From an uncultured Verrucomicrobiota bacterium (GTDB lineage: Bacteria > Verrucomicrobiota > Verrucomicrobiia > Opitutales > Seribacteraceae), in the NCBI GenBank assembly GCA_902569115.1, contig CACFTI010000004.1, positions 1 through 64,000 on the forward strand: a stretch of DNA of 64,000 nt, read 5' to 3'. Both the position numbers and the translations under genes were made by a program. Shown here in pieces: positions 28,817 through 32,860 of this stretch; the first letter of the stretch is position 1; every line of letters starts with the position of its first letter. The notes below the pieces were generated by a model, which was given only the letters and a program-made list of their open reading frames with translations, was not told where the DNA came from and ran no database searches.

Positions 28817-29959
28817 GTGAAGGTTTTCTCGATTACCTTGTGGTTACTTTTTTTTCGCCTCTTAGAAATTTCATCCTGGGGGCAAAGCTATTTGCGGGGA
28901 AAGTACCGCGAATGGATCGAGGATGATGACCGGGTGGAAGTAAAATCCTGGTACGCAGAGACAGAAGTTGAATTGCAACAAGGCTGGTCACTGGATTTTC
29001 TGGGCACAATTGATGCATGGTCCGGAGCCACCCCTTATGGTCTACCACCTACAGAGGCCAGTACAGAGAATGAATGGTTACTGCGTGTGCCAGAGGAAAT
29101 AAGGAAAGCAGGTTTATTTACCTTAAATAAAGGAACCCTGAACCATGACTTTTCATTCGAATACGGAATCAGTGATGAACCCGATTACCTGTCCCGTAGT
29201 TATGCCATAAAATATTCACATAAACTGGCAGCAGAGACATTGATTTTAAATTCTGGCTTATCGCTGCAGGACGATTCGGTAAAAAACTTTGTCGGAAATT
29301 TTGTGGAAAAAAAGACTCCATCAATATCAGTGGGCTTAGCCCATATTCTCGATAAATTCACCACCATATCCTTCAATTTTACATACTCATGGCCAAGTGG
29401 ATACTTGAGTGACCCTTATAAGGTAATCCCTGCAAACCAAAGATTCATCTTCCTTCCCGAGGAGGTTTTTCTTTTTGAGGAAAATCGACCTGACGAAAGA
29501 GAAATTTTGGTGCTTTATTTCGAACTTTCAAGATATCTCGATGAATTTAAGATCGGGACGCACCTATCATACCGTTTTTTTCAAGATGATCATGCATTGA
29601 ATGGACATACTTTCCATTTGGAAACCAACCGAAAATTTGGAGACAAGTGGATGATCTCACCCCGTTATCGTTTTTATCATCAAAACCAAGCATCTTTTTA
29701 CAGTCCTAGGATTCGTAAATATGAAACTTACATGAACTCGCCCGATTCATCCAATGGTCCTTATTACTCGGCGGACCATCGGTTGTCGTCTTTTGATTCC
29801 CATACTCTAGGGTTAAAAATATCTTATTTCCTGAAAGATGATCTTTATGTGGATGCTGGTTATGATCGCTATTTCACCGACGGCAAGGATGGACTCACTG
29901 ACAAAAGGGTATACCCAAACGCAAATGTATTTACCGTGGGATTGCAATGGGAGTATTGA
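28817..29959 (+). CDS. DUF3570 outer-membrane beta-barrel protein
   Basis: A 380-residue exported protein starting at GTG. Signal peptide to about residue 22 (SSWGQSYLRGKY). It is built of alternating amphipathic strands with many Tyr/Trp and ends in WEY, consistent with an outer-membrane barrel; family hallmarks are WSGATPYGLPP, YSWPSGYLSDPYKVIP and a late DAGYDRYFTDGKDGLTDKRVYPNANVFTVGLQWEY region. DUF3570 is regularly encoded with ApbE and DUF4266, as here: ApbE overlaps its stop by 13 nt. Those clusters have been proposed to support extracytosolic flavin-based redox functions; the actual role of the barrel is unknown. Confidence 0.88.
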   Translation: MKVFSITLWLLFFRLLEISSWGQSYLRGKYREWIEDDDRVEVKSWYAETEVELQQGWSLDFLGTIDAWSGATPYGLPPTEASTENEWLLRVPEEIRKAGLFTLNKGTLNHDFSFEYGISDEPDYLSRSYAIKYSHKLAAETLILNSGLSLQDDSVKNFVGNFVEKKTPSISVGLAHILDKFTTISFNFTYSWPSGYLSDPYKVIPANQRFIFLPEEVFLFEENRPDEREILVLYFELSRYLDEFKIGTHLSYRFFQDDHALNGHTFHLETNRKFGDKWMISPRYRFYHQNQASFYSPRIRKYETYMNSPDSSNGPYYSADHRLSSFDSHTLGLKISYFLKDDLYVDAGYDRYFTDGKDGLTDKRVYPNANVFTVGLQWEY

Positions 29960-30933
29960 ACCCTAACTTGGAAAAAAATTATTCTTTTCACAACGAAAGA
30001 GAAATCGCGGTTCTCTCCTTTCGTGCCTTTGGAACCTCTTGCAAAGTTAAATACTCCGCTTTCGACTCTATCGATTATGAATTTGTCTCCCAACAAGTCA
30101 TACAATGGGTGCAGGGTTTTGAACAAAGATACTCCCGTTACTTAGAAAATAGTTGGTTATCTCTTGTCAATGCGTCTGCTGGGGTAAAACCCATCTCGCT
30201 GACACAGGAAGATATATTAACTCTTCGAGCCGGCAGTTTTGCCTACTTTCAAAGTAACCAGACGATTGACCCATCCTGCCTCCCTCTCACCGCTCTTTGG
30301 CAAAAGGCAAAAGCTAAAAATCAAGTGCCGCAAGAACGTGAGATTAGCGAAGCCAAGGAATTGGTAAATTGGCAAAATGTGCAAATTTCAGAGGATGAGA
30401 TTTACCTACCCTTCGAAGGAATGGGACTTGATTTTGGTGGTTTCGGCAAGGAATTCGCGGTCGATCAGGTATCTGAAAAACTGAGGAATCTGAACTGTGA
30501 AAACTTCCTAGTTGATTTCGGAGGAGACATTTTTGCTTCGGGTTTTGCCTCAGAAGGCATCTCATGGAAAGTAGGCATTGAAAAGCCACAGGGCACAGAT
30601 CAACCTGTATTCGTCGCTAACTTAACCAATATGTCTTTGGCAACATCCGGAAATTACCGGAAATTCTTTGATTTAAATAACAAAAGGTATGGGCACACGA
30701 TTGATCATCGAACGGGATACCCCACCATTCATTCAGAACTGAGTGCCTCAGTGATCAGCCCAAGCTGCCTCAAATCAGGTATCATCTCCACCTCTTGCTT
30801 GATGTCAGGAAAACAGGAAGGTCTTCGAATGATTGATTCTGAGTGGAATGTTGAGGGCTGTATTCAGTCATTTGATTCTCCCCTTCTCAGCAATAAATTT
30901 TATCGATATATCCAAAATGAAAATCCTACTTAA
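29947..30933 (+). CDS. apbE: FAD:protein FMN transferase (ApbE family)
   Basis: A 328-residue ApbE. It transfers FMN from FAD onto Thr/Ser of target proteins, with Mg. Family motifs: FRAFGTSCKVKY at the start, RYSRYLENSWLSLVNAS, FEGMGLDFGGFGKEFAVD, NFLVDFGGDIFASG and SLATSGNYRKFF-HTIDHRTGYP. There is no obvious signal peptide or lipobox, unlike most exported ApbE proteins, so it may act in the cytosol or be exported by an unrecognised signal. It overlaps the DUF3570 gene and the DUF4266 gene. The gene downstream of DUF4266 carries an SGATT motif that could be its substrate. Confidence 0.93.
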   Translation: MGVLNPNLEKNYSFHNEREIAVLSFRAFGTSCKVKYSAFDSIDYEFVSQQVIQWVQGFEQRYSRYLENSWLSLVNASAGVKPISLTQEDILTLRAGSFAYFQSNQTIDPSCLPLTALWQKAKAKNQVPQEREISEAKELVNWQNVQISEDEIYLPFEGMGLDFGGFGKEFAVDQVSEKLRNLNCENFLVDFGGDIFASGFASEGISWKVGIEKPQGTDQPVFVANLTNMSLATSGNYRKFFDLNNKRYGHTIDHRTGYPTIHSELSASVISPSCLKSGIISTSCLMSGKQEGLRMIDSEWNVEGCIQSFDSPLLSNKFYRYIQNENPT

Positions 30934-31138
30934 CTTCCTGATTATTCTTGTAACAGTTCTCACTGGTTGTACCCCAAAAATGACGGTTAGTCCCATGGAA
31001 AGATATCATCTTGCAGATATAGTAATGAAAACGGACCGCGATCCGCTTTCTCAGAAGATGAACGATCACGCTTATTTTTCAAGAGAAGGCTCAAGAGGAG
31101 GACGCGGAATAGGTGGTGGTGGTTGCGGATGCAATTAA
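30917..31138 (+). CDS. DUF4266 lipoprotein
   Basis: A 73-residue lipoprotein: signal peptide with lipobox TVLTGC (Cys18), the conserved centre MERYHLADIVMKTDRDPLSQKMNDHAYFSREG and the Gly-rich C-terminus ending GGGGCGCN. This is the complete DUF4266 pattern, including the terminal CxC that may bind a metal or cofactor. ATG at 30917 lies inside the end of apbE (17-nt overlap); an open frame extends upstream to 30833 but lacks a signal. Part of the DUF3570-ApbE-DUF4266 operon. Confidence 0.9.
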   Translation: MKILLNFLIILVTVLTGCTPKMTVSPMERYHLADIVMKTDRDPLSQKMNDHAYFSREGSRGGRGIGGGGCGCN

Positions 31139-31140
31139 GC

Positions 31141-31926
31141 ATGAAAAAGCTTCGGGTAATCCTGTCCTTTGCCTTACTCATTGAAGCAAGATCAATTACC
31201 CCAAAAATTATCAAGTTTTCCGGACTGCTCCTCAAACCTGTACCTGCATTTCTAAAATCCGTTCATGCTTGGATACCGGCAACCGCTGGTGTGGTTACCA
31301 CTCATGCTCTCTCCGGTGCCACCACTGAAGTCAAATCAACTCAGGGAAATTCTATTAGTGTAAAAGCAGGAGAAAATTTAACCTATCAATTTTACACTTC
31401 GCGATATACCGCAGGAAGCTACAGCATTGCTAACTTACCAAATGGACTAAGTTATGATGGTAGGAACACGATATCCGGAATAATTTCTGAAGCGGGTACC
31501 TACAATATTCAAATTATTGGTTATCGAGGAAGAAGCCAAAATGGTTCCTACACCCCAGCATTTACTCTTGAAATTATTGTAATTAAAGATGATTCAGATA
31601 ATGAATTTGATTCTGAGAAAACCATAGATTCTTATTTTTCTGCATCTACTGATCTTGGTAACAACTGGTTTCAAGCTTGGATGGGCACCTTCTACATCCC
31701 TACCAATGGCAACTGGATCTATCATTCTCATTTAGGTTGGTTATATGCTCACCCTACTGAGCTAGACACTTTTTGGTTTTATGATGAAGGCTTGGGGTGG
31801 CTCTACACTTCCAAAACCTTGAATCGTTACTTTTACAGGAACAACCCTAGTGGATGGTTGTATCAATTAGATAGCTCTTCCAACAATCGCTTTTGGGATT
31901 ATTCACAAGAATCCGAATTGAAGTAG
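31141..31926 (+). CDS. Exported Ig-like / W-Y repeat protein with an ApbE-like SGATT motif
   Basis: A 261-residue protein starting two bases after the DUF4266 stop. It has a hydrophobic, atypical N-terminal region (about 5-52), then THALSGATTEV (SGATT at 58-62), an Ig-like putative domain of the He_PIG type (about 66-147: AGENLTYQF, IANLPNGLSYDGRNTISG, EAGTYNIQIIGYRG), and a C-terminal Trp/Tyr repeat region (about 174-254: FYIPTNGNWIYHSHLGWLY, FWFYDEGLGWLYTSKTLNRY, NNPSGWLYQLDSSSN) of a kind common on verrucomicrobial surface proteins. SGAT followed by T/S is the sequence modified by ApbE in FMN-binding domains. Because it is in the same operon as apbE, Thr61 is a candidate flavinylation site. 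This is an inference; no canonical FMN_bind domain surrounds it. Confidence 0.75.
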   Translation: MKKLRVILSFALLIEARSITPKIIKFSGLLLKPVPAFLKSVHAWIPATAGVVTTHALSGATTEVKSTQGNSISVKAGENLTYQFYTSRYTAGSYSIANLPNGLSYDGRNTISGIISEAGTYNIQIIGYRGRSQNGSYTPAFTLEIIVIKDDSDNEFDSEKTIDSYFSASTDLGNNWFQAWMGTFYIPTNGNWIYHSHLGWLYAHPTELDTFWFYDEGLGWLYTSKTLNRYFYRNNPSGWLYQLDSSSNNRFWDYSQESELK

Positions 31927-31972: not shown

Positions 31973-32860
31973 ATGAATCAGGATTTTAACAAGATCTTCA
32001 AAACACCCAAATATACCGGGGTGACCTTGTCTCTACTATCTATGTTTGTCCTCGCTGCCATGTTTGTAGTGTGGCAAAAATTTCCCAAACAAGACCCGCT
32101 AGAGTCCGAGCAAAATATTTCGATCCTTTGTGATTTTAAATTAAAGATTCCAGTAGAAAAAATCCTAGCTTCATTCAAAAAAGAATATCCCTGTAGCTTT
32201 ATGGTAAATTTTCTGAATGCCAAGGAACTTACTTCAGCTTTACAAAGTAAGAGCGGCTATAACGCTGATTTGCTCATCGCGAATAAAACTATCCTGCGAA
32301 AATATGCTTTTGCAGATTCAAATTATGGAGAAGGTATACCGTTTGCCTTTGACAAACTTTCTAACTCACTGCCCGAACAACAAAGTAATGAGCCATTCGT
32401 TTGCTCAATCAAAAATGATACTCCACATTCCCACCTAGCCTTTGCATTAGGACGATACTTTTCCGCCCCAAGTCGCGGTCAATTTTTCTTGGCAGAAGCT
32501 GGTTTTACCGGAGTCAACGGTGATGTATGGAAACTCAGGCCTACTGTTTCCATTCTTGTTCCAAAAACATGTGAAAAAAGAAGCAAGGATATCGCCAAGA
32601 AATTTAGCAAGCTTGAGGGTGTAAATTTGGATGTTACGGGTAAAGATGAGCTAGAGGCCAATGCAACCATTCATTTGATTGCACAAAGTAATGCCAAAGA
32701 ATACCTCCCTGATTTACTGATCGGCTTTAAGGAGCTTAGCCCCGACAATAAATCTTATTTTCCTGCCACTGAAAACTCCCGGCAAGGCTTGGTTTCCTTT
32801 TCAACCAGATATAAAAGGACTGCCATTCGTTTTTTTAATTTTTACAATCGTGAAATCTAA
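31973..32860 (+). CDS. Membrane-anchored periplasmic-binding-protein-like (ModA-like) protein
   Basis: A 295-residue protein with an N-terminal membrane anchor (about 17-34) and a periplasmic part resembling the molybdate-binding-protein family: first-lobe pattern NISILCDFKLKIPVEKILASF ... ADLLIANKTILRKYA (49-110) and a C-lobe helix ALGRYFSAPSRGQFFLAEAGF (157-178). Residues 191-255 (TVSILVP...DIAKKFSKLEGVNLDV...PDLLIGFKEL) look like a second partial copy of the first lobe. No permease or ATPase gene is adjacent. It follows the SGATT protein by 46 nt and precedes two HtrA-like genes. It may sense or present a ligand rather than serve transport. Weak family call. Confidence 0.6.
   Translation: MNQDFNKIFKTPKYTGVTLSLLSMFVLAAMFVVWQKFPKQDPLESEQNISILCDFKLKIPVEKILASFKKEYPCSFMVNFLNAKELTSALQSKSGYNADLLIANKTILRKYAFADSNYGEGIPFAFDKLSNSLPEQQSNEPFVCSIKNDTPHSHLAFALGRYFSAPSRGQFFLAEAGFTGVNGDVWKLRPTVSILVPKTCEKRSKDIAKKFSKLEGVNLDVTGKDELEANATIHLIAQSNAKEYLPDLLIGFKELSPDNKSYFPATENSRQGLVSFSTRYKRTAIRFFNFYNREI

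Follow-up and report, generated by a model that had tools for sequence, protein, structure and literature searches.

Covalent attachment of FMN by ApbE takes place at a short consensus motif, D-x-x-[ST]-G-A-[ST], whose aspartate is called strictly conserved (PMC12052999). Mutants presented in section 8 of the same source show that changing D to A has a minor effect, which allows H or N at the first place of the motif, and that about 50% is left after changing G to A or A to V. DUF3570 was shown to be flavinylated by its ApbE, in clusters of DUF3570, DUF4266 and ApbE genes that often also encode a thioredoxin-like protein and DsbD (eLife 2021, PMC8238504); within the texts covered by our literature search, DUF3570 and DUF4266 were each met only in this paper. 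Further candidate substrates, of the Flavodoxin_4 and FMN_red families, have been proposed from apbE linkage combined with the motif (mSystems 2024, PMC11334425).

The stretch of DNA analysed here (the window: 64,000 nucleotides from an uncultured Verrucomicrobiota bacterium) holds, at 28817-31926 on the + strand, four genes in the order DUF3570, ApbE, DUF4266 and a gene for what we shall call the module protein, overlapping or almost so (open reading frames and Pfam search; Table 1). The first three adjoin one another and are the genes of the clusters in which DUF3570 is a demonstrated substrate (PMC8238504); matches to PF12094, PF02424 and PF14086 bear out the earlier note, which had placed apbE and DUF4266 directly before the module gene and DUF3570 in the same operon. 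Unlike many of the clusters described in that paper, the one in the window lacks a thioredoxin-like gene, and ApbE is followed directly by DUF4266. A gene of this kind separates the two in other families of the order (L159:9052-9552 in f13, L162:8634-9149 in f7). The next gene downstream, 31973-32860, without a Pfam match, recurs close to the cluster (30-54% identity) in 10 of the 13 named loci.

Table 1. Features of the cluster and of the module gene, with positions in the window
Feature	Position	Strand	Basis
DUF3570 gene, predicted outer-membrane beta-barrel, family of known ApbE substrates	28817..29959	+	PF12094 182.9 bits; AlphaFold2; Foldseek
DUF3570 flavinylation-type motif D66-A-W-S-G-A-T72	29012..29032	+	alignment of DUF3570s
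ApbE (FAD:protein FMN transferase), no evident signal peptide	29947..30933	+	PF02424 215.3 bits; solved relative 7esa_A
DUF4266, small lipoprotein-like protein, C-terminal end CGCN	30917..31138	+	PF14086 71.4 bits; translation
Module gene, likelier start (start in earlier note 31141)	31129..31926	+	start comparison with relatives
N-terminal module, residues ~1-75	31129..31353	+	72 distinct modules aligned; N-part-only profile A5
Motif H59-A-L-S-G-A-T65	31303..31323	+	sequence; conservation
Thr65 codon, candidate FMN site	31321-31323	+	last codon of motif H59-A-L-S-G-A-T65
Ig-like (He_PIG-type) domain, residues 69-136	31333..31536	+	PF05345 20 bits, below cut-off; AlphaFold2
C-terminal Trp/Tyr-rich repeat region, residues ~166-265	31624..31923	+	many further matches in genome

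We consider it likely that the module protein is a second ApbE substrate of an extracytosolic redox system formed by DUF3570, ApbE and DUF4266, carrying flavin at the base of a surface rod. The best reading of the sequences is a Verrucomicrobiota-specific substrate beside DUF3570, with FMN on Thr65, and the surface proteins that share the module are probably a new kind of covalent flavoprotein. It had been suggested that this protein could explain what DUF3570/DUF4266/ApbE clusters modify. That suggestion has to be given up: DUF3570 is already known to be flavinylated (PMC8238504) and keeps its site here, so that the module protein is a second candidate, in one branch, and does not explain the target of the cluster.

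Numbering of the candidate residue depends on the start of the gene. Read from 31141 to 31926 (+), the protein has 261 residues, and its translation contains THALSGATTEV at residues 54-64, exactly as first reported. An in-frame ATG at 31129, overlapping the DUF4266 stop codon, gives a protein of 265 residues with HALSGATT at residues 59-66, and turns the earlier Thr61 into Thr65. We prefer this second start to the one first proposed because a relative, L010, reads MQLSKKKL and has no Met at the later place. MQL occurs at the earlier place in 12 of 21 loci; conservation of this ATG proves little alone, since it overlaps DUF4266 codons that are themselves conserved.

Used as query against 134 genomes, the first 150 residues retrieved the protein from 21 of them, the window included (best E <1e-17). 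Of the 21 loci fetched, the window again included, 20 have the gene next to DUF3570, ApbE and DUF4266, the exception (L025/L039) being a 974-residue protein with the same N-terminus, some 4.6 kb from the cluster. [ST]GA[ST] stands at the same place in 21/21 loci; in an alignment of 20 rows H59, G63, A64 and V68 are invariant and T65 nearly so. Searched with the single protein, named genome contigs gave no relative, and searched with the alignment they gave 13 loci, in assemblies titled Opitutales, Opitutia, Opitutae or Verrucomicrobia. The unit that is conserved is the N-terminal stretch of about 75 residues: a short hydrophobic segment, a conserved Arg (often in LLQR[ST]P), a second, weakly hydrophobic segment and then the motif. 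Class members outside the order (families f29, f33 and f38) adjoin DUF4266 as well; D[ST]V[AST]GAT, close to the published consensus, is the motif of five of them, and in f38 the module is present twice, with DAVSGAT and DAYSAAT.

Outside the Ig domain, A64 is the sole invariant column in an alignment of 72 distinct modules (46.7 effective at 60% identity), and every module has the motif [STAV][GA]A[TS]. The acceptor place is T in 66 and S in 6, the third-last place G in 68 and A in 4, and the first of the seven motif residues H in 32, N in 23, D in 15 and Q in 2, so that the relaxed form [DNHQ]xx[STAV][GA]A[TS] fits them all. The window's HALSGAT lacks the D of D-x-x-[ST]-G-A-[ST], while members of the class with the full D-x-x-[ST]-G-A-T exist. 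We count against our reading that D is found in no more than 15/72 modules, and that A or V at the fourth place (25/72) and A in place of G (4/72) go beyond the published consensus. In this set L106 was kept though doubtful; among the loci tabulated, L084, L088 and L130 repeat longer ones, and G150/L111 was dropped as false, its match lying in the middle of a larger reading frame.

The module also follows the cluster from genome to genome. Two draws of 273 genomes of the order were taken as one set, as were two draws of 387 genomes of the phylum, their handles agreeing wherever both are listed. In the order, every one of the 41 genomes with DUF4266 also has the module, which the profile matched in 40 and reading of the open reading frame revealed in one (G192); among the 232 genomes without DUF4266, a full module is found in one, G144 (75% complete), among the matches listed (Fisher 4e-48, a figure that ignores kinship). 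Profile A2, used first, takes in the Ig domain and had matches in 100/273 genomes, many by Ig alone, which is why matches beginning at profile position 15 or before were counted as full modules; its match list reaches about E 8e-7, so that a genome without DUF4266 might still hold a full module too weak for the list. Within the genus, 14 genomes of the same set have both DUF4266 and the module, and nine have neither DUF4266 nor, among the matches listed, a full module. ApbE is present in all of seven module genomes of the genus that were searched for it, six of which (5/6 of the near-complete ones) are without an FMN_bind match. A second profile restricted to the N-part, A5, matches 25 of the 387 phylum genomes, all among the 42 that have DUF4266: 19/19 in the order, 6/7 in the rest of the class (G474 has the cluster without the module, a case that counts against our reading) and 0/16 in other classes. 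A5 is biased, having been trained on modules many of which adjoin DUF4266; G529 and G595 were matched from outside the training rows. In family f7, the module genes of the fetched fragments lie outside the cluster, which is elsewhere in the same genomes. Conservation next to apbE and DUF4266, the check that had been proposed, thus came out in favour of the motif: it is kept in relatives, and genome by genome the module goes together with DUF4266.

Linkage and co-occurrence would also be accounted for if the module were an accessory of the system, docking for example on DUF3570 or DUF4266 through a motif that mimics a substrate site and stays unmodified. This would also accommodate the four members that read [ST]AA[TS]. 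By itself it gives no reason for a Thr or Ser at the acceptor place in 72/72 modules, and we regard it as unlikely.

The DUF3570 of the window keeps its site, IDAWSGATP, and S69, G70, A71 and T72 are invariant in an alignment of 13 rows. Another candidate site, DxxTSAS, by inference the second published DUF3570 site, is found in a few relatives and is absent from the window copy. The AlphaFold2 model is a barrel (pTM 0.67) in which the motif lies where a strand ends, and nearly all Foldseek matches are outer-membrane barrels, with low TM-scores. In these clades the first variable place of the DUF3570 motif is S, T, A or V, the same range as in the module. The two places seemed at first sight to vary together, [AV] in DUF3570 going with [AV] in the module in 11/11 loci and [ST] with [ST] in 20/27 (Fisher p 2.6e-5), and three additional loci read V/V, A/A and S/A. 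On well-supported branches of an ApbE tree (39 rows; L160, which has no ApbE row, and L230 left out), one independent pair differs in DUF3570, with no difference in the module; three pairs differ in the module, where DUF3570 differs the same way in 0.8 on average and never the opposite way. No independent support was left after this control, and covariation was rejected as independent evidence.

This range of residues matters for the main rival explanation, a real difficulty for our reading, in which [STAV]-G-A before Thr65 is a signal-peptidase I site that ends an unusually long signal peptide, the module being an unflavinylated targeting segment. Signal-peptidase I sites follow the AXA rule at -3 and -1, with neither Gly at -2 nor Thr/Ser at +1 being known to be required. 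The module is N-terminal and partly hydrophobic, and its S, T, A or V at -3 and constant A at -1 fit this rule. Gly at -2 (68/72) and Thr or Ser at +1 (72/72) go beyond what the peptidase is known to need, and the site lies some 45 residues from the hydrophobic core (residues 10-20), after a stretch that is weakly hydrophobic in the window. Furthermore, the same S/T/A/V variation is seen inside the DUF3570 barrel, where cleavage is unexpected, and the co-occurrence with the ApbE cluster is left unexplained, all of which makes this explanation unlikely.

A single [ST]GA[ST] word is weak evidence on its own: 128 occurrences over 389,016 positions in 875 other long reading frames amount to a chance of about 8% for a protein of this size, and 29 over 26,322 positions in the remaining parts of module proteins to about 25%. 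It is conservation in relatives that gives it significance, and the idea that the motif arose by chance in an ordinary surface protein next to apbE, which such frequencies (8-25%) would allow, is contradicted by its presence at the same place in 72 distinct modules and by the co-occurrence over genomes, leaving this explanation hardly any probability.

If flavinylation of Thr65 is the preferred reading, we must ask what kind of protein would carry the flavin. Membership of FMN_bind was rejected, in agreement with the earlier note: PF04205 has no match in the window protein (E up to 1), 14 relatives or 43 N-parts (E up to 0.1). The N-part has no sequence match in the PDB at E up to 1, and the 43 N-parts gave only isolated single-member matches in Pfam and NCBIfam (best E 0.045 and 0.0046, respectively), no family matching more than one. 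Behind the module, AlphaFold2 predicts strands with confidence (residues 75-152), and the top Foldseek matches, though weak, are for the most part to Ig-like domains. The He_PIG assignment made earlier stands as a predicted Ig-like fold, despite a PF05345 score of 20 bits against a curated cut-off of 24. Modelling of the motif's surroundings, also suggested at that time, was informative for these strands but not for the motif, since residues 21-64 have pLDDT <50 and no flavin pocket is predicted, which counts against our reading.

The description of the protein as a candidate ApbE substrate of new architecture holds as a prediction, with a change in what the architecture is: the N-terminal module is conserved, and what follows it, here an Ig domain and Trp/Tyr repeats, can be exchanged among module proteins. 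These proteins range from about 255 to 2,571 residues, with differing repeats, among them InlB-type (L039, L040), Ig with NHL (L093) and a series of 25 Ig domains (L159). In L039:8901-11825 (974 aa) and L040:7192-10542 (1116 aa) the module is joined to InlB-type repeats and to the Trp/Tyr C-terminus seen in the window; in the L039 genome a small copy next to the cluster is missing. In genus g34 (L045, L046, L105, L107, L108) tandem paralogues of the module lie away from the cluster, some with TAAS or TAAT as motif, and the DUF3570 of this genus reads DTITGSTP. The Trp/Tyr-rich C-terminal region, which has no Pfam name, has 21 further matches in the window's genome, two of them weak. As it ends 2-29 residues before the stop in 7/7 loci read (L002-L008), it has the appearance of a common C-terminal domain for sorting or attachment.

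These elements may be put together as follows. The module of about 75 residues would present the motif [DNHQ]-x-x-[STAV]-G-A-[TS] in a flexible segment, and the ApbE whose gene lies two places upstream would attach FMN both to DUF3570 and to Thr65. An exchangeable extracellular rod, made of Ig, InlB-type or NHL repeats and sorted by the generic C-terminal domain, would have the flavin-bearing N-terminus at its base. We infer that the protein works with the DUF3570 outer-membrane barrel, which would carry its own FMN, and that DUF4266 (CxC) and, in relatives, the thioredoxin-like protein may join an electron route at or across the outer membrane.

Export is a real difficulty for this scheme. 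The window ApbE matches solved FMN transferases over most of its length (best solved relative 7esa_A, E 1e-30), and a search of its own genome (70% complete) found a single ApbE. Judged by hydropathy and by eye, the cluster ApbEs (window 29947-30933, L009-L029, L179-L196) have no evident signal peptide, two divergent loci, L197 and L198, being exceptions, and some of the N-terminal rows ending at locus edges. In other ApbEs of the order (L050, L052, L057, L058) the N-terminus is hydrophobic. Both DUF3570 and DUF4266, by contrast with the cluster ApbEs, look like exported proteins. A bolder scheme, which we hold to be unlikely, would have flavinylation possibly occur in the cytosol, before export: the FMN-tagged module would dock at or in the FMN-bearing DUF3570 barrel, forming an all-flavin outer-membrane conduit of Verrucomicrobiota in which electrons pass from periplasmic thiol proteins to a flavin bound covalently where a variable surface rod has its base, as a cytochrome-free functional analogue of Mtr-type conduits.

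Should the preferred reading, a second substrate modified on Thr65, be correct, ApbE would gain a further class of substrates, a short N-terminal segment without recognised flavin fold, on adhesin-like surface proteins. The poorly understood DUF3570/DUF4266 clusters would gain a surface partner, and flavin-based electron transfer at the outer membrane of Verrucomicrobiota a directly testable case. It would then also become a question how exported proteins are served by an ApbE that has no signal peptide.

With reference to known systems, the texts searched (the main text in the case of PMC8238504, whose supplementary tables could list the gene) gave no description of the module protein. By the terms searched, the main text of that paper mentions no substrate of Ig type or with an N-terminal module, and neither Verrucomicrobi- nor immunoglobulin occurs in its main text or in that of PMC11334425. 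FMN_bind proteins (PF04205; NqrC, RnfG) also have an [ST]GA[ST]-type motif ending in the flavinylated Thr or Ser; the module differs in the lack of an FMN_bind match and in having its motif in a segment of the N-terminus that is predicted to be flexible. In FMN_red the motif is placed in an unstructured extension, as in the module, but Flavodoxin_4 and FMN_red, as presented in PMC11334425, have a flavin-binding fold near the motif, where none is predicted for the module. There is a likeness, too, with short flavin tags, for which a seven-residue motif can suffice, best near a terminus (PMC12052999). Such tags are engineered, while the module is a natural family. What it stands for would be a new class of substrates for a modification already known, rather than a new kind of system.
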